Origin: Bacteroidota bacterium
GTDB taxonomy: Bacteria > Bacteroidota > Bacteroidia > Palsa-948
DNA: 43,106 nucleotides
Direction: 5' to 3'
Assembly (NCBI GenBank): GCA_023251625.1
Contig: JAHEYK010000010.1
Location: forward strand, 1 to 43,106
Numbering within the stretch: the stretch's first letter is position 1; each line of letters opens with the position of its first letter. Shown here one piece after another: positions 6,957 to 35,963 of this stretch. The notes under the pieces are model-generated. The model ran no database searches. It had not been told where the DNA came from and saw nothing but the letters and a program-made list of their open reading frames with translations. Position numbers and translations under genes: made by a program.

Positions 6957-7415
6957 ATGAATATTACCTTTATCTGCACAGGAAAGACCTCCGAAAAGTA
7001 TGTTTCTGAGGGCATGGGTATTTACCTGGATAGGTTAAAGCACTATTGCAAATTCAGTCTGATAGAGATCGAAGCCGGAAAGGGAAATGAAGCTGAGATC
7101 CGGAAGAAAGAAGCAGCATCTCTTCTGAAAAGGGTAGGAGAGAAGGATTTTCTCGTTTTGTTGGATGAAAAAGGAAAGGAGCTTACATCTCCCGGATTTG
7201 CAGAATTAATGAAACACCATCAGAATATTTCTACAAAAAATATTTTCTTTGTGATTGGCGGTGCTTATGGGTTTTCAGAAGAAATCTATAAAAGAGCAAA
7301 TTTGAAGGTAGCCTTATCCAAGATGACTTTTCCTCATCAGTTGGTCAGGATCCTGTTTTTAGAGCAGCTTTATCGTGCCTTTACGATTTTGAAAGGGGAA
7401 AAATACCATCACTGA
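6957..7415 (+). CDS. rlmH: 23S rRNA pseudouridine-1915 N3-methyltransferase
   Basis: RlmH is a small SPOUT-class methyltransferase that methylates pseudouridine 1915 in helix 69 of 23S rRNA on assembled ribosomes. The 152-residue length is normal. The SAM-binding trefoil-knot motifs are visible: FLVLLDEKGKELTS in the middle, FVIGGAYGFSEE, and the C-terminal SKMTFPHQLVRILFLEQLYR ending KGEKYHH, which is nearly invariant in the family. It is divergent from the DUF4783 gene and overlaps the end of galE by 7 bases on the opposite strand. Confidence 0.96.
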   Translation: MNITFICTGKTSEKYVSEGMGIYLDRLKHYCKFSLIEIEAGKGNEAEIRKKEAASLLKRVGEKDFLVLLDEKGKELTSPGFAELMKHHQNISTKNIFFVIGGAYGFSEEIYKRANLKVALSKMTFPHQLVRILFLEQLYRAFTILKGEKYHH

Positions 7416-8437
7416 TTCTCTCGGGTGCGATATAATTCCCATTTCCAGGCGCTTGCCATCATTTCTTCGATGCTGTATTTAGGTGTCCATCCAAGGAGTT
7501 TCTTTGCTTTAGAGCTGTCTGAGTATATCGCTTCAACATCACCCGGCCTTCGTGTGCCAATCACATAGTTCAGTTTTCTGCCGCTGATTTTTTCAAAAGC
7601 TTTTATTGTTTCAAAAACAGTTACTCCATTGCCTGTTCCAAGGTTAATTATCTCAAAGTTGGTCTTGTTTCCCTTGCCGAATAAAAACTGTAAGGCAAGT
7701 ACATGTGCATTGGCAATATCGGAAACATGAATGTAATCGCGAATGCAGCTGCCGTCCCTGGTTTTGTAGTCGTTTCCGAATACCTGGAATTGTTCCTGTA
7801 TTCCCGCAGCTGTTTGCGTAATTGCCGGAACAATGTTTCCGTAGTTTCCGGTTTGTGCTTCCCCGATCAGGCCGCTTGGGTGTGCACCAACGGGGTTGAA
7901 ATATCGAAGCGAAATACAGTGGATAGCCGGATTCTCTTTTGAGAATTTTGCGATGATCTTTTCACCTTCTTGTTTTGTTTCAGCATAAGGTGATTGTGCT
8001 TTTTGTATGGGTGTTTCTTCATTCACGGGAAGCGTGTCAATGTTTCCATAAACAGCGCAAGAGGACGAGAAAATAAAATTCTTCACACCGAATTCCTTTA
8101 TGCAGGCAAGAATGTTCTTCAGCGATTCGATGTTGTTGTGAACATATAATTCAGGATTTGTAACTGATTCAGGAACAGATTTAAGAGCGGCAAAGTGAAT
8201 GACCCCTTCTATTTCCGGATTCTCTGAGAATATTTTTTTAGTCTTTTTAAGATCGCATAGGTCAATATCATAGTTGTTGATCTCTTTTTTTGTGATCTTC
8301 TTTATTCGTCCGAAAGTTTCCGGCTCGGATCGCATGAAATTATCTGCAGAAATCACCTGCCATGATGTTTTTTCAAGTACTTCTAATATGGTGTGAGAGC
8401 CGATATAACCCGCTCCGCCGGTGATGAGGATTTTCAA
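7409..8437 (-). CDS. galE: UDP-glucose 4-epimerase
   Basis: GalE interconverts UDP-glucose and UDP-galactose (or the N-acetyl forms). The 342-residue protein has the Rossmann motif GGAGYIGSH (7-15), the catalytic Ser in FSSSCAVYG and the Tyr-Lys pair in YAETK (Tyr151, Lys155). The C-terminal block GTRRPGDVEAIYSDSSKAKKLLGW is typical of GalE. Placed at the edge of the polysaccharide locus and 9 bases after the CotH-like gene, it probably supplies galactose-type sugars to it. Confidence 0.94.
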   Translation of the reverse strand: MKILITGGAGYIGSHTILEVLEKTSWQVISADNFMRSEPETFGRIKKITKKEINNYDIDLCDLKKTKKIFSENPEIEGVIHFAALKSVPESVTNPELYVHNNIESLKNILACIKEFGVKNFIFSSSCAVYGNIDTLPVNEETPIQKAQSPYAETKQEGEKIIAKFSKENPAIHCISLRYFNPVGAHPSGLIGEAQTGNYGNIVPAITQTAAGIQEQFQVFGNDYKTRDGSCIRDYIHVSDIANAHVLALQFLFGKGNKTNFEIINLGTGNGVTVFETIKAFEKISGRKLNYVIGTRRPGDVEAIYSDSSKAKKLLGWTPKYSIEEMMASAWKWELYRTRENQ

Positions 8438-8446
8438 AACGATGGA

Positions 8447-10954
8447 TTATTTTGAAGCGTAGATCACTTTATATACATCGTGGGCTTTTGTTTTGAAAGT
8501 ATCATTATCCATGACTAATATAGAGTTTGCTTCTATCAGGTAATTTTTTGAATCGCTGCGAGTATTTTTTACCACTATAACACCGGGACCATACTCTGGT
8601 TTTTTCTGGTAGGCGGCAATAGGATATTTGGCAGAATGAATATTGCTGTTTTGTACATTTACAAATGATTTGTCTTTTGATGCAATTCCGATGAATGATT
8701 TGTTTATCTCAATATTGGAAGCATTGATAGATGCTTTTTCTCCTCCGCTTATGCCTTTATCACCAATATTGTCAAGATGAATATTGCTTACAGTTACACT
8801 TGCTCCTGAAATATCCAGACCGTCATTTCCTGTGTTGCTGACAGTGGTATTTGTAATGCTTCCTCTTCCAAAATCAATGTCAATAGCATCCGACAATGTG
8901 TTCGAAAAAGTACAGCTGTCAATATTAAAAGTACAGCGAACAATATTAATGGCATCTTCTGACTTATTATTATTGAAAGAACAATCTTTAATATTCACAC
9001 TGCAATCGTAAAAGGTAACAGCGCCAGTAACAGACCAATTTCCATCTTTTGGTGCAGCCAGGTTTTCAAACTCTACATATTTCAATTCAGATGTATGCTC
9101 GGCATTTTTTATCACAATCCCCCCGGTACCATCAGAACTGATGCGAATTTTGTTTTTAGGCTGCCCCATTGCAAGTATTTCCGATTCGCAGATGATGTTG
9201 GCATGATCGGAAAGGGAAACGGTTGTGCCGGCCGGGATAATGAACTTAAATCCGGGAGGTATGTATAGATTTTTATTGACCAAGACTTTTTGTTTTCGAA
9301 AAGAGACGGTATTGTCTTTTTTGTTGAAATTCAAAATTATGGTGTCAGGTATTTCAGACACCAAAGCGCTATTGATATTGTCCGCCCTTTCAAACACAAC
9401 AATTTTGTGTTTCATTTTGGTAGAATCCAATCCGTAGATAACAGAGTGCAGCGTAAGTCTTTTGCCCCATTTGCCGGTATCAATTGAGTCGATGTGAAAT
9501 GTATCTGATTCGAATGGCATTAGAAGTTTATCTAGCTTATAGGTAAGCCCTGAATCTAATTTCACAGACTTGAGATTTACGACCAGGGGGCTCATTGATT
9601 TTACGACAAGAATTTTTTCAGACCTGTAAGCTTTTGCGATCAGTCGCGTATCAGTAGTGAACCAATTTTTAATGGTTTGAATATTATCAATTATCAAAGA
9701 GGAATTAAACTCGGGCTGAAATTTCTCGCGGTACAGTTCCGGGTCTATAGCTTCAATCAGGTCCTTATGTTTCTCAAGGAAATGCCTGATAGTGTCATTG
9801 TGGGAATATTCGAATAGATAGAAATTGAATTCTTTTATAAACTCAGCGTCTTTAAATAATAAATAATGAATGGGGTACTTCTTCTGGTTGCTATATACCT
9901 CCCCGGAATAATAGTTATAACCAGGTTGCACTGCAAGTTTTGTTTTATAGCGAACAAAATTCAAAGGGTCCCATGCGATTGGTTCAAATTTATCATTTAT
10001 CGGATTGAAATACATTTTCACATTATGACACACATAGGAGTGGTGTGCCAGAAAAATATCGCAGAGCGCAAAATATTTGGCGAATTTTTTTGTGTTGAAG
10101 CATTGTGAAGGGCCGATCTTCCCGATCCTGAGTGAGCTGAACTTGAACCGTGCTCGATTATAGCATTTTGATAAAGTAGAATCTTTCAGTATTTTCTTTT
10201 CGTTGTAGACATTCAATTCCGGAATCCAGGTACTATTGTATGTGCCGTTATTATCTTCGCAGTCATTTCTGAACCGCATAATGACACCATCTCTGTAATC
10301 TGAAGACTCAACCAATTCTTTGCCAAATCCTTCTTGCAGAAAGTAAATTCCATTGTCCTTTCCGTTTAAAAAAAGCCTAATAAAAAGAATGTCATTAGCT
10401 ATGAATCCTTCTTTGTTAAAAAAATGCGAGAACAGATATCCGTAAAAATTATTTTGGAGAAAGGGACGTTCGAAGGATAATTTCTTTTTTCCAAAAATAG
10501 CCGTATTGCTCTCAACATTGAATCGATAGGATGAGTTTTCGAGACCTCTGTTAAAGTTCGATGGCATATCTCCGCGTATCCTTATTTTTATTTTGTGAAC
10601 TGTATCGTTAAGCTTGATAGTGGCTGAAACAAACTTCCACTGGTTCTGTCCATTCAATATTTGTTGATTCTCTTCGTCAAATTCGAGCTTGTTCGTTCGC
10701 ATACTGTCCAGGTCTGCAAGTTGTTGTTTATCTATTTCCAAATGCAGTTCGGGGAGGTGCAATTTGTCTGCCCTGCCTGAATTAAAGAACCTGTGCACAT
10801 CATTCTGAATTCTCTTTAGCAGCGTTTCTTTCACGTATTCGCGAAGAGGTAGGTCGTTCTGGATATCCTTTACAACTATGTAAATGAACGGGCCCGCCAG
10901 CAACAACAGGAAAATTACTGATGAGAATATGTATTTTTTCGTATTACCCTGCAT
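8447..10954 (-). CDS. Membrane-anchored CotH-kinase-like protein with C-terminal beta-helix
   Basis: About 835 residues. A single N-terminal membrane segment (roughly residues 8-30) anchors it with the rest outside the cytoplasm. Residues about 60-430 resemble the CotH kinase family (atypical protein kinases of spore coats and of many secreted bacterial proteins). Visible landmarks are KIRIRGDMPSN, the NGKDNGIYFLQEGF block, the DIFLAHHSYVCHNVKMYF block and PIAWDPLNF with a likely metal-binding Asp. The last third has repeated short strands such as FNIDSCTFSNTLSDAIDI and ITNTTVSNTGNDGLDISG, typical of a right-handed beta-helix. Start is ATG at 10954; an in-frame TTG at 10966 is less likely because the -7 box covers it. 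It could modify surface polysaccharide or proteins; the substrate is unknown. Confidence 0.75.
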   Translation of the reverse strand: MQGNTKKYIFSSVIFLLLLAGPFIYIVVKDIQNDLPLREYVKETLLKRIQNDVHRFFNSGRADKLHLPELHLEIDKQQLADLDSMRTNKLEFDEENQQILNGQNQWKFVSATIKLNDTVHKIKIRIRGDMPSNFNRGLENSSYRFNVESNTAIFGKKKLSFERPFLQNNFYGYLFSHFFNKEGFIANDILFIRLFLNGKDNGIYFLQEGFGKELVESSDYRDGVIMRFRNDCEDNNGTYNSTWIPELNVYNEKKILKDSTLSKCYNRARFKFSSLRIGKIGPSQCFNTKKFAKYFALCDIFLAHHSYVCHNVKMYFNPINDKFEPIAWDPLNFVRYKTKLAVQPGYNYYSGEVYSNQKKYPIHYLLFKDAEFIKEFNFYLFEYSHNDTIRHFLEKHKDLIEAIDPELYREKFQPEFNSSLIIDNIQTIKNWFTTDTRLIAKAYRSEKILVVKSMSPLVVNLKSVKLDSGLTYKLDKLLMPFESDTFHIDSIDTGKWGKRLTLHSVIYGLDSTKMKHKIVVFERADNINSALVSEIPDTIILNFNKKDNTVSFRKQKVLVNKNLYIPPGFKFIIPAGTTVSLSDHANIICESEILAMGQPKNKIRISSDGTGGIVIKNAEHTSELKYVEFENLAAPKDGNWSVTGAVTFYDCSVNIKDCSFNNNKSEDAINIVRCTFNIDSCTFSNTLSDAIDIDFGRGSITNTTVSNTGNDGLDISGASVTVSNIHLDNIGDKGISGGEKASINASNIEINKSFIGIASKDKSFVNVQNSNIHSAKYPIAAYQKKPEYGPGVIVVKNTRSDSKNYLIEANSILVMDNDTFKTKAHDVYKVIYASK

Positions 10955-10963
10955 AAAAGATTG

Positions 10964-10995
10964 CAAAATTACAATTATATCATTAAGTAGGTCAA
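10964..10995 (-). promoter_or_regulatory. Promoter for the CotH-like gene and galE
   Basis: On the minus strand TTG (10995-10993) and TAATTTTG (10971-10964) are 21 bases apart, a good match to the Bacteroidetes consensus. The ATG at 10954 is only 9 bases after the box, so the transcript would have little or no leader. It starts just inside the end of the preceding gene. Confidence 0.55.
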
Positions 10996-10999
10996 TGAG

Positions 11000-12115
11000 T
11001 TAACTAATATTAGGTTTGGGATGGTTAGTTTTTAAAATGTCATTAAGGAGGCCAAGATATTTCTCTTTTTGTGAGTTGACAGAGTATTTTTCCTCTACCG
11101 TTTTTCTCGCCTCAACTCCAATGCGGTGCCGTAATGTTGGATTTTCGATCAAAGCAGAGATCTTCTCTATCCATTCGCCCTCTTCTTTAGCCAGATAACC
11201 GTTGATGCCGTCTGTTATAATGTCGGAGTTCACGCCCACGGGGGACATGATACATGGAATTTCAAGAGCCATGTATTGCAACCCCTTTAGCCCGCATTTG
11301 CCTTTCGCCCATTCATCATTAGGTAAAGGCATGATTCCTATGTCGAAAGAAGAAAGTTCTTGGATTTCATTTTTCTTATTCCAAGCGATTCCTTTTATAT
11401 TCAGTTCTGTATTTTCATAGGAGGCATCGCCGATTACTTTTATAATAATTTCCTCTCCGTATTTTTCTTTCAGTTTTTTTAGTGCGGGGAGTGCATATTC
11501 AAAATGTTTTATTGTGGTTATGCTTCCGCTCCAGCCTATGCACACTGTTTGTCGTGATTTTTCCCGACTTACTTTTAAATATTCATTCGTGTCTATGGTT
11601 GTAGGGATAATCTTTACATTATTGTTATGATGTTTTGCATAATCCGCGAGGTATTGATTGCCTGCTAAAACCATATCTGATACGGAAATTATTTTAGCTG
11701 TTTTTCCGGGTTCTTTCAACCAATCAAATCTTTTATTTGCATCGGAAACATCGAGATGCCAGATGGCATCATCAAAATCAAAAACGATCTTCGCTCTCGA
11801 ATTCCTGAACTGGCGCTCAAAAAAAGTTGAGCCCGTCAAAAAGGCTTCTCTGAAAATAAAAATTATATCAAATTGATTAGCTCTCCAGGCATCTTTTTGC
11901 CGTTTAATCCAGGCGCGCAGAGCAATAAAAAATTTTTGAAGATATTTCCCTTTCTGATAAAGTACCTTGTCATCAGTTTCAGAAATGATGGGACTTAACT
12001 CGCAATGAAATCCATTCTGCTCAAGAAACGCCATATATTGCTCAAAACGAAAACGCTGACCGGGAGCACGATCTTTACGATGAGAGGCTATGAATAGGAT
12101 CCGTTTCTGCTTCAT
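11000..12115 (-). CDS. Glycosyltransferase, GT4-like
   Basis: GT-B fold glycosyltransferase of about 371 residues. The N-terminal half begins KRILFIASHRKDRAPGQRFRFEQY, and the C-terminal nucleotide-sugar domain contains IGWSGSITT and the GLKGLQYMALEIPCIMS stretch, which is the donor-binding region of family 4. The start is ATG at 12115, which overlaps the stop of the preceding methyltransferase as ATGA; a longer in-frame start at 12139 would lie inside that gene. The sugar donor and acceptor cannot be told. It belongs to the polysaccharide locus and is probably translationally coupled to the methyltransferase. Confidence 0.85.
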   Translation of the reverse strand: MKQKRILFIASHRKDRAPGQRFRFEQYMAFLEQNGFHCELSPIISETDDKVLYQKGKYLQKFFIALRAWIKRQKDAWRANQFDIIFIFREAFLTGSTFFERQFRNSRAKIVFDFDDAIWHLDVSDANKRFDWLKEPGKTAKIISVSDMVLAGNQYLADYAKHHNNNVKIIPTTIDTNEYLKVSREKSRQTVCIGWSGSITTIKHFEYALPALKKLKEKYGEEIIIKVIGDASYENTELNIKGIAWNKKNEIQELSSFDIGIMPLPNDEWAKGKCGLKGLQYMALEIPCIMSPVGVNSDIITDGINGYLAKEEGEWIEKISALIENPTLRHRIGVEARKTVEEKYSVNSQKEKYLGLLNDILKTNHPKPNIS

Positions 12116-13017
12116 ATTTTCTTCCCTATAGCGTGCCAATAGGGTGCATGTTCTGAAAAGATGATCTCGGTTAGCCCGGCCTTCTCCATCATCTTGCGAA
12201 TATTCTCCCGTGAGAAACGCTGCTCTAATGGAGTGCCGAAGCGGTCAAGCGCATCATTTCTGATGATATAAAACCTTTTGTCAATATAAAAGGATAGCGG
12301 TATGTTATTGTACGCTTCGATTCTTAGTACTCGAAGAAGTTTAGCAAGCAATACAAATGGTACATACACAAAAAGCGCAATGGTATCGCATATGAAACGT
12401 TTCCCTATAGGTGGAAGGGACGATATTATTTTTCGAAAAAAATTGGAAAGGTGAAAAAGAAAATGAAAGACAGGCCCACGATTATCAAGGTTGTAGTATA
12501 AATAAAGATGAAAGTAGCCATTTCTTTTTAACTTTTTTACGGCAGACTGTATGGCCCGAAGTGTGTCAGGGACATGATGCAAAACGCCGAGGGAAAAAAT
12601 GAAATCGAAGGAATCGTTGGAGAAGGGAATGTTATCAGCAGAAGCTTTTGTGATGCGAACATTTGAAATCCCTTTTAATAAGCGGGCCGCTGCAAAAACG
12701 GCCTCGGATGGGTCAATTGCTTCGATAAAACCAACGTGGGGAGCAAGATATTTAGTCCAACGGCCAGAGCCACATCCAAGATCAAGGGAGATTTTATCCT
12801 TTCCGAGGATTTTTTCACTTACTATATCAAAATACTGATCACCGGCTGTTTTGATATCTTCGTCATTAAATTGGTTGAAATTTTTCCATTCATCCCCGAA
12901 TGACTTTACAGTTTTATCGTCAATATTATTCACGGTACTATCCTGAAAATCAGCAATGATGAAATCGCCGCACTGGTGAACAAGTAAGGGATTGGAAGAA
13001 AATGGGAGTCCGTGCAT
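12112..13017 (-). CDS. Class I SAM-dependent methyltransferase
   Basis: This 301-residue protein has the SAM-binding glycine loop LDLGCGSGRW at about residue 80, an acidic end of strand 2 in AIDPSE, and motif DFIFSLGVLHHVPD, all typical of Methyltransf_11-type enzymes. The C-terminal part (about 170-300) contains a hydrophobic stretch (IALFVYVPFVLLAKLL) that may sit against the membrane. The target could be a sugar of the polysaccharide or its lipid carrier; the sequence does not decide. It overlaps the downstream glycosyltransferase by 4 bases and follows the epimerase remnant by 6 bases. Confidence 0.85.
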   Translation of the reverse strand: MHGLPFSSNPLLVHQCGDFIIADFQDSTVNNIDDKTVKSFGDEWKNFNQFNDEDIKTAGDQYFDIVSEKILGKDKISLDLGCGSGRWTKYLAPHVGFIEAIDPSEAVFAAARLLKGISNVRITKASADNIPFSNDSFDFIFSLGVLHHVPDTLRAIQSAVKKLKRNGYFHLYLYYNLDNRGPVFHFLFHLSNFFRKIISSLPPIGKRFICDTIALFVYVPFVLLAKLLRVLRIEAYNNIPLSFYIDKRFYIIRNDALDRFGTPLEQRFSRENIRKMMEKAGLTEIIFSEHAPYWHAIGKKI

Positions 13018-13467: not shown

Positions 13468-14832
13468 ATGTACAGTTATGTAATTACCTATTGGGATTGG
13501 CTGTTGTCTCCCGTATACATTTTAATCATCGCAGTGTTTGCTTCCAGAATAAAAAATAAATACATTAAAAAGGATGTCATTTACAAATACTTTCTGTGGG
13601 CCTTATTCGCTAAAATTCTAGGTGCAATTTGCTTATGCTTGGTCTATGTATACTATTATGAGGTGGGAGGAGATACGTTGATGTATGATCATGACAGTTC
13701 AGTATTACTAAAGTTATTTTTTAATAATCCCCAGGACTTTTTTACCGTTTGGTTATCGCCTTTGTCAAAAGAAACTGCTTCTCTTTGTACTTCCGGTACG
13801 GGGTACATAACCTACATAAGGGATTCCAATGCCTTTATGGTTGATAGGCTGCTTGTGCCATTAAAGTTTGTTAGTTTCGATAGTTACTTGGTCTCTTCAA
13901 TTCTGATGGCAGTAGTTAGTTTTTCGGGTTTATGGAAATTGTACAGAGTGTTTTGCGATTTTTATCCAAGCCTTCATAGTCAATTTGCAGTAACAATACT
14001 TTTTGTTCCTTCGGTTATTTTCTGGGGATCAGGGATGCTGAAGGATTCATGGACTATATCCGCAGCCGGATGGTATACATATTCTTTTTATAAAATATTT
14101 ATTAAAAAGGACTTTAGGATTTTTTCATTCGCTGCAATTATAATTTCTGCTGCGATAATGATCTTAATAAAACCTTACATTTTCGTTGCTTTACTTCCGG
14201 GTAGTTTTTTATGGATGGTTTCAAATCGCTTGAGCAGGATTAAGAGCAATTTTCTAAAAGTCATTCTTGGCCCCTTTGTGGTAAGCGTTGGTCTGGGTTT
14301 CGGATTGTTCATTTGGTCTTTCACGAGTTCTTCCCTTGGAAAATACAGTTCCATTGATTCTATGTTGCAAAAGGCAGCCGAAGCTTCAGATGACCTTAAG
14401 CAAGACTATTACGGTGGCAATGCGTTTGATATTGGAAAAATAGATCCCACGGTCATGGGAGTTCTTTCTATGTTTCCAATAGCGACTTTCACTGGTTTGT
14501 TCAGGCCCTTTTTGTGGGAGGCTAAAAATGTATTGATGATCGCCTCCGGATTTGAAAACACCATTGTATTGTGTTTTGCTCTTTACGTCCTTTTTCGCAT
14601 GCCCATAAAGATGATCAAAGAGATTTTTTCGAATCCCCTGGTGTTGTTTTGTTTGATCTTTGCAATTTTTTTCGCCTTTTCGGTTGCAATATCAACCTCA
14701 AATTTTGGTTCTATGGTTAGACTTAGAATTCCTCAAATACCTTTTCTACTTAGCGGGTTGTTGATTATATATTTTCAGCAGCAGGGAGGGGTTGGCGCCA
14801 CTTTTCAAGATCGCAAGAGGGGGGATGTTTAA
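13468..14832 (+). CDS. Polytopic membrane protein, possible polysaccharide polymerase or flippase-like
   Basis: The 454-residue protein has about ten hydrophobic segments, starting with WLLSPVYILIIAVFA and ending with PFLLSGLLIIYF. It has a large loop in the first third (about residues 80-140) and the distinctive stretch VPSVIFWGSGMLKDSW near residue 190. Long loops and position in a glycan locus resemble Wzy-type O-antigen polymerases, but no diagnostic motif is recognised, and proteins of this kind are usually annotated as hypothetical. It lies on the plus strand as a one-gene island between minus-strand blocks and converges with the deacetylase gene 15 bases away. Confidence 0.7.
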   Translation: MYSYVITYWDWLLSPVYILIIAVFASRIKNKYIKKDVIYKYFLWALFAKILGAICLCLVYVYYYEVGGDTLMYDHDSSVLLKLFFNNPQDFFTVWLSPLSKETASLCTSGTGYITYIRDSNAFMVDRLLVPLKFVSFDSYLVSSILMAVVSFSGLWKLYRVFCDFYPSLHSQFAVTILFVPSVIFWGSGMLKDSWTISAAGWYTYSFYKIFIKKDFRIFSFAAIIISAAIMILIKPYIFVALLPGSFLWMVSNRLSRIKSNFLKVILGPFVVSVGLGFGLFIWSFTSSSLGKYSSIDSMLQKAAEASDDLKQDYYGGNAFDIGKIDPTVMGVLSMFPIATFTGLFRPFLWEAKNVLMIASGFENTIVLCFALYVLFRMPIKMIKEIFSNPLVLFCLIFAIFFAFSVAISTSNFGSMVRLRIPQIPFLLSGLLIIYFQQQGGVGATFQDRKRGDV

Positions 14833-18833: not shown

Positions 18834-19562
18834 ATGAGATTGCTAAACCGGTTAAGAAAGGAGTTTCGAAAGGAGATGTCAATTCCTTCTTGGATTTCAG
18901 TCATGATTAATTCAAATTATTTTATTTCCAGGGGGATTGCCAATGGAATAAGAAAGAATGCGCATTATATGACAGGTAAAATGATGGATTTTGGCTGTGG
19001 CATAAAGCCATACCGTTCGCTATTTAGTGTCGTGGATCATGTAGGTGTAGACATTGAAAATACCGGGCATAGCAACAGTCGCGTTTTTGTGGATAAATTT
19101 TACGATGGAAAAACTATCCCATTTGAAAGTGAATATTTTGATTCGATATTTAGCGCGGAAGTATTAACACATATATTTAATGTGGAGGAGATTGTTCCTG
19201 AGCTTAATCGTGTTCTGAAGAAAGGAGGTTTTTTTTTGTTAACTGTGCCTTTTGTCTGGAAAGAAAATGAAAAACCGAATGATAGCGTGAGATATACTTC
19301 ATTTGGTATTGCATATTTGCTCGAGAAACATGGTTTTCAGATCGTTAGTCAGCAGAAATCCGGACATTATCTGACGGTTGTTTTTCAGTTGCTCAATGAT
19401 TACATTTATAGTTCTCTTTTTCCCAATGTCAAAATAGTCAAGGCCCTTTTTACCTTTCTTCTGATTTTTCCATTGAATTGCTTGGGCCTTTTTTTATCAT
19501 CTATCTGTCCGACCAATGCTGATCTTTTTATGAACAGTGTTATTGTCGCTAGAAAAAAATGA
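18834..19562 (+). CDS. Class I SAM-dependent methyltransferase
   Basis: 242 residues. Motif I is MMDFGCGIKPYRSLF, then HVGVDIENTGH, and YFDSIFSAEVLTHIFN followed by LNRVLKKGGFFLLTVPFVW. This is the Methyltransf_11-type arrangement seen in many polysaccharide loci. The C-terminal 60 residues are hydrophobic (ALFTFLLIFPLNCLGLFLS), suggesting attachment to the membrane. It overlaps the next gene by 4 bases (ATGA), so the two form a coupled plus-strand pair inside an otherwise minus-strand block. Confidence 0.86.
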   Translation: MRLLNRLRKEFRKEMSIPSWISVMINSNYFISRGIANGIRKNAHYMTGKMMDFGCGIKPYRSLFSVVDHVGVDIENTGHSNSRVFVDKFYDGKTIPFESEYFDSIFSAEVLTHIFNVEEIVPELNRVLKKGGFFLLTVPFVWKENEKPNDSVRYTSFGIAYLLEKHGFQIVSQQKSGHYLTVVFQLLNDYIYSSLFPNVKIVKALFTFLLIFPLNCLGLFLSSICPTNADLFMNSVIVARKK

Positions 19563-20593
19563 ATACGCCCTTGCTGCCGAATGGGATTGTTGTTTCTTCT
19601 GATTTATCTGCAACAGATAAGGAGTCGATTCGTATTTTTTTTCAAGGAGCCGACCATCCTTCTCATTTTAACAATCCTGCTTGGGCGGAATTAGCAGAAC
19701 CGTATAAAAAGCATTTATTCGTTAGGTTTTATGAAAATGGCAGGTTAACTGCAATAGCCACTGTTTATACCCGCATGTCGCTATGCACTGTTCATTTCGG
19801 GCCGATGGTAGAAGAACTCAAAAGGCTTGATTATTATTTAGCGCAACTTGTTAGGTATTTGAGGGAAAATAAATTTGGATTACTCTTTTTAGAGGTAAAA
19901 TCTGACAGGGAAATAGATACCTCTTCATTTTCAAAAAAGGGAGCTTGGAACACTATTTTAATTTCACTTGAAGGAAGGACTTCGCAGGATATTTTTCAGA
20001 CATTTTCAAAAGGGCACAGGTCGGCAATTAAAAAGGCTTATAAGGAGGGTTTAGAGGCGAGATTTATTTCAGATAGCGCCTTATTGGAGCAATTAGCAAA
20101 GATCTACGATGACATGCATTTTCGAAAGGGGCTCGTTCTTCCATTGCCTGATTCAAAAGCTTCATTTTGTAAAATTGCGGAAGAAAAGTTAGGGGTTGTT
20201 ATCGGAATTTTCAAGCAAGATCAATTAGTAGGAGGAATTATTTGTGTTTCTGAGGGTCAGTCGCTGTTGTATAAGTTCGGGGCCACCGATTTTATGCAAC
20301 ACCATCTGCCTATATTACATATCGCCATCTTTGAAATGATCAAGTACGCTCTGAAAACAAATCACATCACAGTGGATCTCTGCGGGTTTACTCCAAATGC
20401 AAAATCAGGCTCATATGCCAGTGGAATAAATACTTTCAAGAAGGGTTTCGGAGGTGAAGTTGTAGAATTTTCCCGATCGTATATTGTGAAGTTGAATTTT
20501 GTAAAGGCAACCTATTTAGCTTTTGCGCTTATAATGATTAGGATAATTCCATCTTACATCCTTCGATTAATTTATAAAGTTAGGCTGCGCTGA
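19559..20593 (+). CDS. FemAB/GNAT-type transferase
   Basis: The 344-residue protein resembles the FemAB-like GNAT-fold family (aminoacyl- or acyl-transferases). Visible features are SKGHRSAIKKAYKEG near residue 155, DDMHFRKG, the segment VGGIICVSEGQSLLYKFGA, and DLCGFTPNA...INTFKKGFGGEVVEF, which is the typical second-half GNAT signature of FemX-like proteins. In glycan loci such enzymes can attach amino acids or acyl groups to amino sugars; the target here is not known. ATGA-coupled to the methyltransferase before it; its last 14 bases overlap the opposing glycosyltransferase gene. Confidence 0.8.
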   Translation: MNTPLLPNGIVVSSDLSATDKESIRIFFQGADHPSHFNNPAWAELAEPYKKHLFVRFYENGRLTAIATVYTRMSLCTVHFGPMVEELKRLDYYLAQLVRYLRENKFGLLFLEVKSDREIDTSSFSKKGAWNTILISLEGRTSQDIFQTFSKGHRSAIKKAYKEGLEARFISDSALLEQLAKIYDDMHFRKGLVLPLPDSKASFCKIAEEKLGVVIGIFKQDQLVGGIICVSEGQSLLYKFGATDFMQHHLPILHIAIFEMIKYALKTNHITVDLCGFTPNAKSGSYASGINTFKKGFGGEVVEFSRSYIVKLNFVKATYLAFALIMIRIIPSYILRLIYKVRLR

Positions 20594-28815: not shown

Positions 28816-30051
28816 CTAGTTACTTCTTGTTGTGTCCCAGTTGAACTGCATGGATAAAATGGAATTCTTTTTTTCATAACCTAAATTCTGAAAGATCCCC
28901 ACACTGTCAAAAATATCAATAAATATCTCATCCACTACATCATATACAGTTCTATGAGAAGTAATACCGATGCGTAGCCTGTACGAGCCAACATTTAATA
29001 ATTTTTCAGGAAATTTTATTAGACTTTTATAATGCCCGGTTTGCCTGGTTTTAAGTGTTTCGGGGTTCAACTCGGCTTCATTGGATGTGATGATGTTTTG
29101 GCTTTCTCCGGCCTGTGCTATTGCTACACTCACACTTAAGCCGGTTATTGATTCCCGTATGTCATATTCGATCACCAAAGAAAATGGTTTGTTTAGATCA
29201 AAGGACCCCGCAGGAGAACCATTTTCGTCAATTACTGAAACTTTGAGTATTTGAGCTTCTTTTTTCTTGTTTTCGGCAAAAGTATTTACGACTAAATGTT
29301 TTTTTTCAGATTCCCTCAAATAATAGTCAATTACCTCTTCCATAGTTCCACTATTTGCCGTTGAGCCGTTTTTTAAAAGCACGCCCCTTGTGCAAAGAGT
29401 TTTCATAGCGGTCATGTTATGACTCACGAATATCACGGTTCTCCCTTCATTTTTTGTCACGTCTTCCATTTTCCCCAAGCATTTTTTTTGGAATTCTGCA
29501 TCACCTACAGCCAACACTTCATCGATCAATAAGATCTCCGGCTCAAGAAAAGCGGCAACCGCAAAAGCAAGGCGCAGTTGCATGCCGCTCGAGTAATGTT
29601 TAAGGGGCGTGTCAAGGAATTTCTCGACACCTGAAAAATCAACGATCTCATCGAATTTTTTCTGGATCTCTTTCCGTTTCATTCCAAGGATGGATCCGTT
29701 AAGAAAGATATTTTCCCTTCCTGACAGTTCGCCATGAAAACCTGTTCCCACTTCAAGCAAACTTGCAATCCTGCCCCTTGAGAGGATCTTTCCTTCGGTG
29801 GGAGGAGTTATCTTTGAAAGAATCTTCAGGAGGGTAGATTTTCCGGCTCCGTTCTTGCCTATGATCCCAACCGATTCACCCGGATGTACATCAAACGAAA
29901 CATTTTTCAGTGCCCAGAAGTCTTCGGTGCTGTGATTGTTTTTTCTGCGGAACAATGAAAAAACAGAATCTCTGAGACTTAAATAGGGCTGCAGCTCGTG
30001 ATCGATACGAAATTTTTTGGAGATATTTTTTATTTCTAATATCGGTTTCAT
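28816..30051 (-). CDS. wzt: ABC transporter ATPase of polysaccharide export (Wzt-like)
   Basis: About 411 residues from ATG 30051, which overlaps the permease stop as TGATG; a longer in-frame start at 30129 would lie in the permease gene. The ATPase has Walker A GIIGKNGAGKST, ABC signature HYSSGMQLRLAFA, Walker B EILLIDEVLAVGD and the switch His in VIFVSHNM. After about residue 250 comes a separate beta-rich domain (HLVVNTFAENKKKEAQI to the end) that fits the Wzt C-terminal carbohydrate-binding domain, which recognises the finished chain end. It powers export of lipid-linked polysaccharide with the adjacent permease. Confidence 0.93.
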   Translation of the reverse strand: MKPILEIKNISKKFRIDHELQPYLSLRDSVFSLFRRKNNHSTEDFWALKNVSFDVHPGESVGIIGKNGAGKSTLLKILSKITPPTEGKILSRGRIASLLEVGTGFHGELSGRENIFLNGSILGMKRKEIQKKFDEIVDFSGVEKFLDTPLKHYSSGMQLRLAFAVAAFLEPEILLIDEVLAVGDAEFQKKCLGKMEDVTKNEGRTVIFVSHNMTAMKTLCTRGVLLKNGSTANSGTMEEVIDYYLRESEKKHLVVNTFAENKKKEAQILKVSVIDENGSPAGSFDLNKPFSLVIEYDIRESITGLSVSVAIAQAGESQNIITSNEAELNPETLKTRQTGHYKSLIKFPEKLLNVGSYRLRIGITSHRTVYDVVDEIFIDIFDSVGIFQNLGYEKKNSILSMQFNWDTTRSN

Positions 30052-30899
30052 CAGGAAAGGTCTGCAAAGTAATATTCTGTCTTTCTGAAATAAAATAATC
30101 CTGCAAAAAATAACAAGATCGAAACGCATAGACTCGTCATTACCAATTGTAGATTTACGGCCGAATGAGTTACAGAAGATCGCAGCAAGTCAATCGCGCC
30201 CGCCATAGGATTTAGCATGAGAATTGTTTGTGCCCACTTAAATTTAATAATGGACACTGGGTAGATAACCGGGGTTAGGAAAAGCAGGATTTGGATCAGG
30301 AAAGGGATAACATATCTGAAGTCTCTGTACTTGACATTTATCGCAGAAAGCCAAGTACCAAGCCCAAAAGTGGCTAAAATGGTAATGAATATACTTAGCG
30401 GAAGATAAATAATAATGTTTGGGTTGACAGCCTGACCGTAGTAAATAAGAATTACTATATATACTACCAAAGCCATCAGGAAGTCGAATAGTGCAACAAG
30501 TATTGCCGACATTGGAATTATAAGCCTGGGGAAATAAATTTTTTTGATGATTCCGGAATTTGATACCATGCTGTTAGAGGCGTTTGCAAGTCCAGAAGAA
30601 AAAATATTCCAAAGCAGTAGTCCGGAATAAACAAAAATGGGGTAGGGGGTATTGTTGTCAGTGTGAACTCCCAGTGCTTGTCCAAAAAACATAGTAAACA
30701 CCAGCATTAGCATGAATGGCTGTAGAATTGCCCAAAGTATGCCGAGAATAGTCTGCTTATATTTCACCTTGATATCGCGCCACGTAAAGAAATAAAATAA
30801 CTCACGGAATTCCCAAAGTTCTTTTAAACCAAGCGAAATTTTGCTTGCAGGCCTTATTTCGTATTCCATAATTTGCGTTGAAAAGACAAAGTTAATCAT
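30051..30899 (-). CDS. wzm: ABC-2 type permease of polysaccharide export (Wzm-like)
   Basis: 282 residues with six predicted membrane segments. The segment ELFYFFTWRDIKVKYKQTILGILWAILQP is the signature amphipathic helix plus first membrane span of Wzm/TagG/KpsM permeases (here given in parts: FFTWRDIKVKYKQT and LGILWAILQP). Later NSGIIKKIYFPRLIIP is also family-typical. The start is ATG 30899; ATG 30869 is a possible alternative with a more usual N-terminus. It pairs with the downstream ATPase by a 1-base overlap and exports polysaccharide assembled on undecaprenyl phosphate. Confidence 0.93.
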   Translation of the reverse strand: MINFVFSTQIMEYEIRPASKISLGLKELWEFRELFYFFTWRDIKVKYKQTILGILWAILQPFMLMLVFTMFFGQALGVHTDNNTPYPIFVYSGLLLWNIFSSGLANASNSMVSNSGIIKKIYFPRLIIPMSAILVALFDFLMALVVYIVILIYYGQAVNPNIIIYLPLSIFITILATFGLGTWLSAINVKYRDFRYVIPFLIQILLFLTPVIYPVSIIKFKWAQTILMLNPMAGAIDLLRSSVTHSAVNLQLVMTSLCVSILLFFAGLFYFRKTEYYFADLS

Positions 30900-30938: not shown

Positions 30939-33900
30939 ATGAAAAAGAAAGTAAAATTCATTAACTTTGTATTAATGCTGTTTTCAAAAAAAATAATCTT
31001 CATTAGAATTGCATTTTTGGGTGTTTTCCTTCTATTGTTTAAATCTCAAAATGTCTTTTCTCAATTTTCTCCAACCAATCTTCCCGGATTACAATTATGG
31101 CTTGCGGGGGATAATGGCATTACTTTCAATGGGACAAAAGTAAGCCAATGGAATGACCAGAGTGGCAATAGTAATAATGCTTTTCAGGGTGCGGGCGCGT
31201 CACAGCCGGATACAGCGGGTGTTATAGTACTAAATGACCACAGGGCAGTGAGGTTCGATGGTGTGGATGATTTTTTGTCTCTTACATCTACTCTAACGGT
31301 TGGCACTATGTTTATTGTATCGAATTGGCAAGGAGGCGGGGCTACTTTTCCTTTGTATAATGGATTAATTTGCAGTCCCACAACCGGCTCTCCATTCAAC
31401 TATGTTTTCGTTGGTACAAAGAATACATCTCATTTTGAGACAAGTGGAATGTTTGGGGCAAGTACATATAAAAATTCACAATTAACGATTAATGGTGATT
31501 ACAGTCAGATTTCCGACTATAAAATTCTCGCGGGGATTGGAGCTTCTCCAGTTTCAAATTACTCTTTTGTTATAGGAAATAATCCGTTGGATGTTGGAAA
31601 CAATTTTTGGAATGGGGATATTATGGAAATTATTGTTTATTCAACGGTACTAACTGCGGCTGAACGCCAGCAAGTAGAAAAATACCTGAGCGATAAATAT
31701 GCCCCACCCGTAAATATCGGGCCGGATATTACAGTGAATTATGGATTCTGTCCGGTTATTAAACTAAAAGCTCATCAAGATTGGTTCACGGCATATCAAT
31801 GGAATACTGGAGAGACGGTTGATTCAGCCATGGTGAATGGGGATTCGTCAATTGTACAAGTGACAAATATTTTTGGTTATTCCTCGTCAGATACTGTCAA
31901 GGTAATATATCCGGGAAACCTTTCTCCGTTTGTTGGCAACGCAACTACCATTTGTTATGGAGGTTCTGTTAAATGGGATACGCAGTTGGATAAAACAGGT
32001 TACAGTTTTCTCTGGCAGGACGGATCGACTGATTCGGTATTTGTCATCACTCAAGCAGGGCAGTATTATGTTAGTGTAACTGATACAATTGGTGTTTCAG
32101 GATGTTCGCGAAATTCCTATACAGTTACAGTTGTGGTTGATAATTTTCCGCAAACAGCATCTCTCGGACCTGATATTTCTATTTGCTCAGGAAATTCAAT
32201 CGCGCTAACTTCTGGTGCGGCGCAGGCCCAAAATTATACTTGGTCCCCGGGAGGTCAGAGCACTTCTTCTATAGTGATTACTGCAACAGGCACAAGTACG
32301 TACACACTTATTGTTCAGGACGTAAATTCATGCTCTGCAAAGGACACCATTAATGTTACCGTAGTGGGAACTGCTCCTGTAGTTGGTTTTATTTCCAGTG
32401 TTACCTGTAAAGGAAATACAACTCAATTTACCGATACGAGCACATCTTCTACTGGCATTGCAGCCCGCCTTTGGAATTTTGGGGATGGTTCACCAACAAG
32501 TTCATTGTCTAACCCAATACACCTCTACGCGGACTCCGGGACTTATCTGGTAAGCCTGACCGTAACAACTACTGTAGGATGTTCGAAAAGCATTTTTAAA
32601 AGCATCAAAATATATCCTTTGCCCAAAGCTGATTTCGCCAGTTTGGTTATGCCGGTTGGAGGCAATACGGTATTTACTGATCAAAGCAATTCTTTTGGAT
32701 ACACTCTGGCAAGTTGGAGCTGGAACTTTGGGGATCCTGTAAGTGGGGTAAATAATGTTTCTGCTGTGCAGAATCCTGTCCATCAATATAGCGTAAACGG
32801 AATACATGATATAAAACTAGTTATCCAGACGCAGCAGGGATGCTTCGATTCTATCAGTAAAAGTATTTTTATTTACAATGATCTTCCTTCAATCCCTGGT
32901 TTGGCATTATGGCTTGCCGCTGATAAAGGAATAGTTTCTAGTCCTGTTAGCCAGTGGAAAGACCAGAGTGGAAATAATAATAATGCCTTTCAGAATACGG
33001 TCGCTGCTCAACCCTCACAAACTTCTTTGGTTTCGAAATTGAATGATCACCCTGTTATACGGTTTGACGGTACGAATGATTTTTTATCACTAACTTCTCC
33101 GGCTACCATTGGAAGTATGTTTGTTGTTTCCAATTGGCAGGGAGGCGGGTCATCATTTCCAAATTATAATGGACTAATTTGCAGCTCAGATCTAACAAGC
33201 TTCAACTATGTTTTTACCGGAGCTAAAAATACGAGTCACTTTGAGCTGGGTCTGTTTGGAACTAAAATTTATGAAAATTCTGTAGTAACTGCAACGGGCG
33301 AATACAATCCTTTGGCAGCCTATAAGATCACAGGAGGCATTGCGACAGCAGCTGTTTCGAATTACACCTTCGTAATTGGAAATAACCCTTTGGATCTTTT
33401 TAATAATTTTTGGAATGGTGATGTTGCAGAGGTTATTGCATATTCAACTGTGCTCACTCCCGCTAAGCAAAAACAGGTTGAAAAATATCTTAGTGATAAA
33501 TACGCTCCTCCTGTTAATATTGGTCCGGATATAACCATTAATTATGGATTTTGCCCAGCGATAAAATTAAATGCACACAAAGACTGGCTTACAAGTTATC
33601 AATGGAGTACTGGTTCAACAGTAGATTCGACATTTGTAAGTGGAGACTCTGTTTTTGTTGCTGCTACAAATATTTTCGGCTACATCTCTTCAGATACTTT
33701 GAACGTAATTTACCCTGGAAGTTTTTCACCCTTTTCCGGAAATACAACAACAATTTGTGCCGGAAGCTCTGTGAAATGGGATACTCATTTAGACAAGGCA
33801 GGTTACAGTTTTCTATGGCAGGACGGATCAACCGATTCAGTTTTTACAATCACTCAGGCCGGTACTTATTTTGTAAAAGTGACAGATACGTTGGGCTGTT

Positions 33901-35963
33901 TTCGCGTATCTAAGACCGTAACTGTTACCATAGACAATTTTCCGAATACAACTTCACTGGGCCCGGATACTTCTATCTGTTCGGGAGCGAGCATCAGTTT
34001 GATATCAGGCGCTGCACAGGCAAATTCGTATTCGTGGTCTCCCGGCGGTCAAACAACTTCTTCAATAAATATTATTTCTTCGGGGAGTTACACGGTTGTT
34101 GCCCAAAATGTAAATGGATGCCTTGCAAAGGATACGATCAATATAAATGTAAAAGGTATAATGCCTGCTGCAAGTTTTCTTGTCAATGCGGTCTGTTTTG
34201 GAAATGCAGTCTCATTTTTGGATGGCACAACGGTTCCTTCTCCGGATAGCATTGCCACATGGAGTTGGAATTTTGGCGATGGCACTTCGACAAGTTCAGT
34301 GCCCAATCCTTCTCACTCCTACACCGCTTCGGGCACCTATACAACTTCATTAACTGTTGTTTCTGATTCGGGTTGTACTGCAACCATTCAAAAAACAGAT
34401 ACGGTACATGCAAAACCTAATGCCGATTTTACCATTTTCTCATCTCCGGTTTGTTCGGGAATGATCCAGCAGTTTACAGATGGATCTTCTGTTTCAAGCG
34501 GTACACTGGGCCCATGGAGTTGGAATTTTGGTGATGGAAGTCCTATCAACTCCAATAAAAATCCTAAGCATACTTATTCAGTAGCGGCAACCTATTCAGT
34601 ACAGCTTATAACTTCTACCAATTTTGGCTGTAAAGATACCTTTGCAGATACAGTTCATGTATACCAGACTCCTCCTGTTTCGTTTGTAGCTGATTCCGTT
34701 TGTGTGGGTGGTATTACGTCTTTGTCCGGCAGTTCTTCAGGCAGTATCGGTAATTGGATATGGAATTTTGGCGATGGTTCTCCAAATGTTACTGTTCAAA
34801 ACACATCGCATGGGTATTCACTTCCCGGAACTTATTCGGTGACCCTGCAGATTACATCTACGAGTGGATGCACGAATGCAGATACAGGCAATGTAATCGT
34901 TTATTATTTGCCCAAGCCCGGGTTCACGGCCAATGCTGCTTGCATGAACAGCCCTATGCAGTTCACTGATACGAGCTCAATACTTGCAAGTACGATCACC
35001 GCCTGGAATTGGCAGTTTGGAACATTTACTGATACCCTTCAAAATCCTTCAGCTACTTATACAGCAGCAGGCACTTATTCCGTGACACTCACAGCAACCT
35101 CTGGGCATGGATGTTCTGCAAGTTCGACTCAAACTGTTTTGGTTCATTCAGCCCCAGTTGCGGGTTTCAGTGAAAATCCTACACATGGATTTCCTCAGCA
35201 GCAGGTAGATTTTACGGATACGTCATCAGGTTCAACAAACTTTCACTGGTATTTTGGGGATGGAGGAGAGGATTCTGTTAATCAAAGCCCCAATCATGTA
35301 TATCAGGCCATTGGTACCTATTTAGTTCTTTTGGTGACGCAAAATCAGTTTGGTTGTGTAGATTCTGCTTTTTACAGCATACCTATTGAACCTCCTCTTT
35401 TGGATGTGGCTGTTAAGCAGGTTTTTCAATCTAATTCTTCAAATGTAATTTCTGTTAAAGCATTGTTGCAAAATATGGGAACACAAGATGTTGTTAATAT
35501 GGAGTTGGCTGTGTATCTTGATAACGGAACCTCTGTGCATGAATTTTGGTCAGGTTCGAATTTTTCTACGAAGTTGTATCCATTCAATTCAGCTCTTGCA
35601 CCGGCAAACAACCTTCATAGCATAGTGTGCGTAGAGGTTATCAAGGTGAATGGCAGGCAAGATGATGTGATCTCAAATAATAAAAATTGTACTGCTATTA
35701 CTGATGAATTCGTATTAATAGACCCCTTTCCGAACCCAACTACAGACCTAGTCTCTTTTATGTTTGTGATTCCTGATGCATCCAATGTGAGAGCGGAGAT
35801 ATTTGATGTCAGAGGAAGACTGGTGGATGTTCCCTTCGATAAAAGCGCGGTACAAGGGCTGAATAACATTAATTACAACACTATAAAACTAGACAAGGGC
35901 ATGTATATGTTGAGGCTTTCTTACAAGGATCAAGTAATAACGAAGGTGTTTGTGAAGGAGTAG
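30939..35963 (+). CDS. Large T9SS cargo protein with duplicated LamG-like modules and PKD domains
   Basis: 1674 residues. A signal peptide occupies the first 42 residues (core IIFIRIAFLGVFLLLF, ending VFSQ); ATG 30975 (Met13) would give a shorter, more usual signal and has a TAACTTTG box just upstream. About residues 44-250 form a LamG/concanavalin-like module (LQLWLAGDNGI, WNDQSGNSNNAFQ, RFDGVDDFLSL). An Ig/gliding-type region to about 480 and two PKD domains follow, and the whole module repeats from about 647 to 1070. Five more PKD domains come next (WNFGDG marks several). The last 80 residues are a type A T9SS sorting domain (PFPNPTTDLVSF, AEIFDVRGRLV, GMYMLRLSYKDQ). Likely secreted across the outer membrane and anchored on the surface; an adhesin-like role is inferred. 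Confidence 0.88.
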   Translation: MKKKVKFINFVLMLFSKKIIFIRIAFLGVFLLLFKSQNVFSQFSPTNLPGLQLWLAGDNGITFNGTKVSQWNDQSGNSNNAFQGAGASQPDTAGVIVLNDHRAVRFDGVDDFLSLTSTLTVGTMFIVSNWQGGGATFPLYNGLICSPTTGSPFNYVFVGTKNTSHFETSGMFGASTYKNSQLTINGDYSQISDYKILAGIGASPVSNYSFVIGNNPLDVGNNFWNGDIMEIIVYSTVLTAAERQQVEKYLSDKYAPPVNIGPDITVNYGFCPVIKLKAHQDWFTAYQWNTGETVDSAMVNGDSSIVQVTNIFGYSSSDTVKVIYPGNLSPFVGNATTICYGGSVKWDTQLDKTGYSFLWQDGSTDSVFVITQAGQYYVSVTDTIGVSGCSRNSYTVTVVVDNFPQTASLGPDISICSGNSIALTSGAAQAQNYTWSPGGQSTSSIVITATGTSTYTLIVQDVNSCSAKDTINVTVVGTAPVVGFISSVTCKGNTTQFTDTSTSSTGIAARLWNFGDGSPTSSLSNPIHLYADSGTYLVSLTVTTTVGCSKSIFKSIKIYPLPKADFASLVMPVGGNTVFTDQSNSFGYTLASWSWNFGDPVSGVNNVSAVQNPVHQYSVNGIHDIKLVIQTQQGCFDSISKSIFIYNDLPSIPGLALWLAADKGIVSSPVSQWKDQSGNNNNAFQNTVAAQPSQTSLVSKLNDHPVIRFDGTNDFLSLTSPATIGSMFVVSNWQGGGSSFPNYNGLICSSDLTSFNYVFTGAKNTSHFELGLFGTKIYENSVVTATGEYNPLAAYKITGGIATAAVSNYTFVIGNNPLDLFNNFWNGDVAEVIAYSTVLTPAKQKQVEKYLSDKYAPPVNIGPDITINYGFCPAIKLNAHKDWLTSYQWSTGSTVDSTFVSGDSVFVAATNIFGYISSDTLNVIYPGSFSPFSGNTTTICAGSSVKWDTHLDKAGYSFLWQDGSTDSVFTITQAGTYFVKVTDTLGCFRVSKTVTVTIDNFPNTTSLGPDTSICSGASISLISGAAQANSYSWSPGGQTTSSINIISSGSYTVVAQNVNGCLAKDTININVKGIMPAASFLVNAVCFGNAVSFLDGTTVPSPDSIATWSWNFGDGTSTSSVPNPSHSYTASGTYTTSLTVVSDSGCTATIQKTDTVHAKPNADFTIFSSPVCSGMIQQFTDGSSVSSGTLGPWSWNFGDGSPINSNKNPKHTYSVAATYSVQLITSTNFGCKDTFADTVHVYQTPPVSFVADSVCVGGITSLSGSSSGSIGNWIWNFGDGSPNVTVQNTSHGYSLPGTYSVTLQITSTSGCTNADTGNVIVYYLPKPGFTANAACMNSPMQFTDTSSILASTITAWNWQFGTFTDTLQNPSATYTAAGTYSVTLTATSGHGCSASSTQTVLVHSAPVAGFSENPTHGFPQQQVDFTDTSSGSTNFHWYFGDGGEDSVNQSPNHVYQAIGTYLVLLVTQNQFGCVDSAFYSIPIEPPLLDVAVKQVFQSNSSNVISVKALLQNMGTQDVVNMELAVYLDNGTSVHEFWSGSNFSTKLYPFNSALAPANNLHSIVCVEVIKVNGRQDDVISNNKNCTAITDEFVLIDPFPNPTTDLVSFMFVIPDASNVRAEIFDVRGRLVDVPFDKSAVQGLNNINYNTIKLDKGMYMLRLSYKDQVITKVFVKE

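Follow-up and report, generated by a model that had tools for sequence, protein, structure and literature searches.

A CotH-like protein with histidine at the catalytic aspartate position and a C-terminal beta-helix, encoded in a polysaccharide locus of a Bacteroidota bacterium

We present here a gene from a polysaccharide locus of a Bacteroidota bacterium whose product joins a CotH-like domain to a right-handed beta-helix and carries histidine where CotH kinases have their catalytic aspartate. This architecture and the family-wide change from Asp to His are well supported. By sequence comparison, the protein belongs to a CotH-like family, called CotH-His here, that is split from canonical CotH, and it is probably not an ordinary protein kinase. 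The exchange of the catalytic Asp for a near-invariant His, with the rest of the nucleotide site mostly kept, suggests altered chemistry rather than decay. The placement of relatives near genes for a polyphosphate polymerase, DUF4956, and a phosphatase offers a concrete idea, namely, phosphate decoration of surface glycans outside the cytoplasm. Our preferred reading, held tentatively, is that an extracytoplasmic, inner-membrane-anchored protein with a CotH-His domain and an AlgG-like helix modifies a surface polysaccharide by altered CotH chemistry.

Gene, domains, and locus

The window is the whole stretch of DNA analyzed, 43,106 nucleotides of contig JAHEYK010000010.1 (GenBank assembly GCA_023251625.1). 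Residues are numbered from the TTG codon at 10966; numbering from the in-frame ATG at 10954, the end coordinate given in an earlier, sequence-only reading of this DNA, is lower by 4. The relevant features are as follows.

8447..10954, minus strand: CotH-His/beta-helix gene (ATG start; open reading frame open to TTG 10966)
10871..10921, minus strand: predicted N-terminal membrane anchor, residues ~16 to 32 (hydrophobicity peak of 2.62, preceded by KK)
9656..10585, minus strand: CotH-like domain, residues 128 to 437 (PF08757 match)
8459..9322, minus strand: right-handed beta-helix, residues ~549 to 836 (AlphaFold model, VIA-align match to AlgG, family profile)
7409..8437, minus strand: NAD-dependent sugar epimerase/dehydratase family gene, directly downstream (galE in the sequence-only reading)
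11000..12139, minus strand: GT4-type glycosyltransferase gene, directly upstream on the same strand
13468..14832, plus strand: membrane protein of 454 aa, unmatched in Pfam and NCBIfam
28816..30899, minus strand: Wzt/Wzm-type ABC exporter (ABC_tran plus Wzt_C, ABC2_membrane)

The sequence-only reading had described a membrane-anchored CotH-type kinase with a C-terminal beta-helix, lying between galE and a glycosyltransferase gene in a polysaccharide locus. Its account of the domains and the setting is borne out. PF08757 matches the protein at 42.6 bits (E value of 7e-11; curated Pfam cut-off, 23.8), the hydrophobic segment after KK predicts the anchor, and the helix is modeled with confidence (see below). 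The epimerase and GT4 genes flank the gene directly, its ATG lying 45 bases past the end of the GT4 gene, and the locus contains glycosyltransferases, methyltransferases, epimerases, a polysaccharide deacetylase, sugar-nucleotide genes, a FemAB-like protein, and the Wzm/Wzt exporter. A frame or assembly artifact is ruled out because the combination of CotH and beta-helix recurs in other Bacteroidota genomes. Searched alone, the window protein had no match in NCBIfam and none up to an E value of 1 among the sequences of solved structures. A scan for a promoter-like pattern gave a single match, far from the gene and at chance level, which was set aside.

The 454-aa membrane gene was considered as a specific partner of the clade that holds the window protein (window, L044, and L111, also L042) and rejected; it is present in 48 of 60 relatives and so appears to be a gene of the locus. 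Its comparison with the Wzy-like 440-aa gene in the operons described below showed no relationship (hhalign probability, 1%). Since all seven same-genus genomes contain the 454-aa gene and only two of the seven searched (G000 and G002) encode the CotH-His protein, the latter looks accessory to a standing polysaccharide locus. Two other genes of the window are recorded here. The FemAB-family protein (19559 to 20593, plus strand) might attach an amino acid to a sugar, and a 1,674-aa PKD-repeat protein with a type IX secretion sorting tail (30939 to 35963, plus strand) lies beside the Wzm/Wzt genes.

The CotH-His family

The host genome contains five PF08757 genes, of which four are strong matches (155 to 220 bits) and retain the catalytic Asp, as canonical CotHs do, while the window copy is weak (45.5 bits). 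A profile of the window's family matches the solved CotH structure PDB 5jd9 (E value of 3.5e-14) and aligns with canonical CotH in hhalign with a probability of 99.6% in local mode (E value of 3e-24) and 99.9% in global mode. The CotH-His set comprises the 51 proteins scoring above 150 bits against this profile, 23 profile-seeding rows, several close relatives, and a few fragments included; 47 canonical CotHs served for comparison. A quick IQ-TREE analysis covered 96 rows (48 family, 47 canonical, and Bacillus cereus CotH) and separated the two groups by a single branch with an SH-aLRT value of 100. The fragments L143 and a piece from L126, as well as L141 (too few filled columns), are absent from the tree, and B. 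cereus CotH, L033, one L042 row, and L076 have long branches.

Among public sequences, the closest relative (67% identity) is from a Bacteroidetes metagenome bin (L026). The protein is rare in a phylum sample, with 3 of 296 genomes carrying it at an E value of ≤1e-6, its own genome included, compared with 16 of 60 relatives at ≤1e-3. Among the 48 members longer than 380 aa, the N terminus includes a strongly hydrophobic segment in 43, and 17 match a loose lipobox-like pattern, on which basis the protein is predicted to be anchored and extracytoplasmic. One member (L116) has an N-terminal CBM_4_9 carbohydrate-binding domain (30.7 bits; cut-off, 25.9). Viral contigs yielded no relative; a protein scan of them gave two pattern matches, neither confirmed, and a motif scan gave two matches that read as short open reading frames (35 and 47 aa). 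Within the accessible CotH, VTC, and DUF4956 literature, which excludes the key 2016 CotH paper and any treatment of subfamilies there, neither the His family nor a CotH/beta-helix fusion was found described.

Catalytic site

According to the accessible parts of two CotH studies, the kinase keeps equivalents of PKA D166, N171, and D184 and sandwiches adenine between Tyr142 and Trp245 (PMC12189002), and B. subtilis CotH is inactive as D228Q and as D251A (PMC7821199). We anchored B. cereus CotH numbering on Trp245, and it agrees at Tyr142. Mapping by hhalign places the site in the window as follows.

10040..10042, minus strand: His309 codon, at the CotH catalytic Asp position (B. cereus D223, B. 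subtilis D228)
10022..10024, minus strand: Asn315 codon, PKA N171-like, retained (B. cereus N228)
9968..9973, minus strand: Trp332-Asp333 codons, adenine-stacking Trp and DFG-like Asp, retained

In the same mapping, W245 corresponds to Trp332, D246 (B. subtilis D251) to Asp333, E123 to Glu212, Y142 to Met230, and K54/K55 to Asn144/Ser145. Position 309 is His in 49 of the 51 family members, with Asp in one (L033) and Phe in one (L029), whereas the same position in the 47 canonical CotHs is Asp in 46 and Ser in 1 (Fisher P of 1e-25 for the His versus Asp split, relatedness ignored). A plain HMMER alignment puts the CotH Asp one residue after the His, a position at which none of the 51 family rows has Asp. 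The term kinase in the sequence-only reading is thus not supported, as the catalytic Asp is His in the window protein and throughout nearly all of its family, K54 is replaced by Asn, and Met takes the place of one adenine-stacking aromatic residue.

The surroundings of the His look constrained. E328 is kept in 49 of 51 rows, P329 in 50, R or K at position 317 in 50, and an aromatic residue at position 332 in 46, and S146 is found in all 49 rows with a residue at that position. Because of this conservation, the site looks like one that is maintained with a different chemistry rather than decaying, and it may also be inactive. The retained Asn315, Trp332, Asp333, and Glu212 would be compatible with nucleotide or metal binding.

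Two further patterns were considered and dropped. The Asn315-Asp333 pair occurs in 33 of 51 rows and is replaced by Asp-Glu in 12, which might have been independent covariation; all 12 rows form one clade, so the replacement was perhaps a single event. The loss of Lys in the window clade (Asn144) is no proof against ATP binding, because both Lys positions vary in canonical CotHs, with K in 31 of 47 (K54) and 37 of 47. The Tyr142 position, Met230 in the window, varies among canonical CotHs too. An AlphaFold model made from two sequences has a pLDDT of <50 over residues 29 to 565, and the CotH crop alone has a mean of 33. The model was therefore set aside for this part, and the absence of CotH from the 50 matches listed in each of two structure comparisons carries no information.

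Beta-helix domain

In the AlphaFold model of the helix, ten-residue pLDDT means are 70 to 94 over residues 601 to 820, with one block at 63. Among the chains compared with VIA-align, AlgG is the best match (Z of 27.6; root mean square deviation of 2.5 Å over 285 residues; 12% identity), followed by AlgE4 (Z of 25.2) and other helix proteins (24.9 downward). A beta-helix family profile, of which the window sequence is one of the seeds, matches it at 403.5 bits. Pfam gave no match on the window helix at an E value of 0.01; several homologues match PF13229. AlgG-type C5-epimerases have the catalytic motif DPHD. As a plain string, it is absent from the window translation.

Polar residues recur along the helix, as counted in 38 helix sequences, fragments included.

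8600..8956, minus strand: conserved polar positions D671/D693/D715/K737, N674/D696/D718, E743, D765, and K789

The first line consists of D671 (35/38), D693 (36/38), D715 (30/38), and K737 (33/37) and the second of N674 (31/38), D696 (33/38), and D718 (34/38), and further along the helix are E743 (26/37), D765 (32/37), and K789 (33/37). The 22-residue spacing is about one coil, so residues D671, D693, D715, and K737 are expected to stack.

The domain is present in 33 of 295 relatives, its own genome included. Of the CotH-His set of 51, 29 rows carry it with scores above 105 bits and 2 with a weak score, and the remaining 20 include some that a contig end truncates. Since CotH-His proteins without a helix exist (e.g., L034, L040, L041, and L043), as do five helix proteins with only a degenerate or partial CotH part (L113, L114, L121, L125, and L135), the two halves are separable both ways. 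The helix is the more similar half in several distant pairs (41% versus 27% for G029; 39% versus 32% for G075), and the order is reversed in the nearest relative (CotH part, 74%; helix, 63%).

Two observations concern individual loci. At L126:7828-10176, the CotH-His/helix gene appears as separate short open reading frames with the metallophosphatase gene still downstream, possibly a decaying copy or the result of sequencing errors. At L046:562-3939 and L132:2176-5583, canonical CotHs of ~1,130 aa with a weakly similar beta-helix adjoin a CotH-His gene.

Gene neighborhoods in relatives

Genes for the VTC polyphosphate polymerase, DUF4956, and the metallophosphatase were identified with custom profiles seeded on proteins with those Pfam matches, within six open reading frames of helix-bearing genes in 17 genera, where contig ends make absences uncertain. 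VTC lies near helix genes in 9 of the 17 genera (g2, g20, g30, g31, g185, g223, g249, g96, and g172). In three of the nine (g185, g223, and g31), the adjoining helix protein is one of the five with a degenerate or partial CotH part, and VTC may therefore go with the helix half; six genera have a VTC neighbor beside a full CotH-His/helix protein. At L037 (g8), VTC lies beside a CotH-His protein without a helix. Metallophosphatase genes, most with signal-peptide-like starts, are also near helix genes in 9 of 17 genera (g9, g14, g16, g20, g24, g30, g31, g223, and g249). One or the other is found in 13 of 17, and neither is found in g1 (the genus of the window), g191, g36, or g10. The window gene itself has no VTC, DUF4956, or metallophosphatase gene within six open reading frames. 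Elsewhere in the host genome (~79% complete), VTC and DUF4956 occur together on another contig, and the only match to the metallophosphatase family covers 59 positions (E value of 5e-4).

The fullest set is found in g20, where DUF4956, VTC, a canonical CotH, a Wzy-like protein, CotH-His/helix, metallophosphatase, and a glycosyltransferase are encoded together. Six of the seven genomes have every member of the set, with a pair of extra genes interposed in two of the six, and in the seventh the contig stops after the metallophosphatase gene. L029 (g30) has the same set plus one extra gene. The canonical CotHs in these operons keep the catalytic Asp. Asp-type and His-type CotHs share one operon at L029, L031, L118 to L120, and L122 to L124.

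A Pfam scan of 132 neighbor proteins from 20 loci found VTC seven times and DUF4956, Wzy_C, and Glycos_transf_1 five times each, versus at most two of each among 126 proteins from 20 arbitrary contigs. The same scan shows no enrichment of PF00149, with 3 matches among the neighbors and 2 among the controls. Thirteen VTC sequences have invariant basic residues in common. Among 60 relative genomes, 34 contain both VTC and CotH, 4 contain CotH alone, 22 contain neither, and none contains VTC without CotH (Fisher P of 1e-12, relatedness ignored). Within this sample, VTC thus occurs only in CotH-bearing genomes, pointing to a general functional link. Some homologues (e.g., L027, L033, and L038) seem to lie outside polysaccharide loci, judging from the gene names that the gene starts there suggest. 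Similar arrangements are on record; the accessible text of two reports places CotH, a polyphosphate polymerase, and DUF4956 beside pel operons (PMC7112168) and VTC-domain genes next to a CotH gene in Clostridium perfringens (PMC2879425).

Interpretation

Modification of a polysaccharide is suggested by the locus, the anchor, and the helix, and an involvement of phosphate by the neighbors in relatives. In the reading that we tentatively prefer, the beta-helix would hold, and perhaps act on, the polysaccharide made and exported by the locus, while the CotH-His domain would bind a phosphate compound through the kept Asn/Asp/Trp site. The glycan would then be modified by this domain, in the simplest case phosphorylated, through a chemistry resting on histidine instead of Asp. 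As an accessory factor, the protein would help decorate the surface polysaccharide rather than act as a protein kinase of the spore-coat type.

An alternative only slightly less probable reverses the roles, with the CotH-His domain lacking catalysis and serving as a scaffold or as a sensor of nucleotides and the beta-helix acting on the polysaccharide as an epimerase- or lyase-like enzyme. The catalytic Asp is lost in 50 of 51 members, the best fold matches are the AlgG and AlgE epimerases (Z of 27.6 and 25.2), and helix residues such as D671, D693, and K737 are conserved one coil apart. The greater similarity of the helix in several distant pairs agrees with this, as do L113, L114, and L121, which keep the helix motifs and a VTC neighbor despite a degenerate CotH part. 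However, His309 and the residues around it show the conservation of an active site, no motif typical of epimerases or lyases was demonstrated in the helix, and the nearest relative is closer in the CotH part than in the helix (74% versus 63%). The existence of helix-less CotH-His proteins (e.g., L034, L040, L041, and L043) likewise argues for an independent role of the CotH part.

An ordinary CotH-type kinase acting on a surface protein would account for the PF08757 score above the cut-off and for the retained Asn, DFG-like Asp, and Trp positions, but it is improbable because all but one of the 51 members have another residue in place of the catalytic Asp, and the accessible account of B. subtilis D228Q describes that variant as inactive (PMC7821199). 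We also doubt that the protein is a nonenzymatic surface structure or an adhesin that merely binds glycan. Beta-helices do occur in nonenzymatic surface and tail proteins, some of them among the fold matches listed, and the anchoring is predicted, but polar residues in register along the helix together with a conserved CotH site exceed what a structural role would seem to need.

The preferred reading, modification of the polysaccharide by altered CotH chemistry, can be made more specific, in a form that we consider very unlikely. Polyphosphate, synthesized and moved through the membrane by the VTC/DUF4956 pair, would be the donor, His309 would take a phosphate and pass it to the helix-held polysaccharide, and the secreted metallophosphatase would be the counter-enzyme. 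PPK1 similarly works via a phospho-histidine. If true, a polyphosphate donor would explain how an enzyme with a kinase fold works outside the cell, where ATP is scarce.

Comparison with known systems

A precedent for the setting is the Gram-positive pel-operon set of CotH, polyphosphate polymerase, and DUF4956 (plus DUF4832), which likewise combines a CotH-like gene with these genes beside polysaccharide genes; as far as the accessible description goes, its CotH is described as a CotH orthologue, and, unlike that set, the window copy is without adjacent VTC or DUF4956 (PMC7112168). A CotH gene in a polysaccharide operon is as such already in print in the same report. With the CotH spore-coat kinases (B. 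subtilis; B. cereus 5jd9/5jda), the window protein shares homology over the whole domain and the Asn, DFG-like Asp, Trp, and Glu positions; it differs in the His at the catalytic Asp position, the predicted membrane or lipid anchor, the beta-helix fusion, and a polysaccharide locus instead of the spore coat. The AlgG and AlgE mannuronan C5-epimerases have a right-handed beta-helix as well, but identity is 12%, and the window helix is fused to a CotH-like domain. Other kinase-fold enzymes depart from the ordinary pattern in comparable ways: SelO is an AMP-transferase with a pseudokinase fold, and FAM20B and POMK are glycan kinases. By description, the CotH-His protein would resemble these as a kinase-fold protein with altered catalytic residues or a putative glycan substrate.
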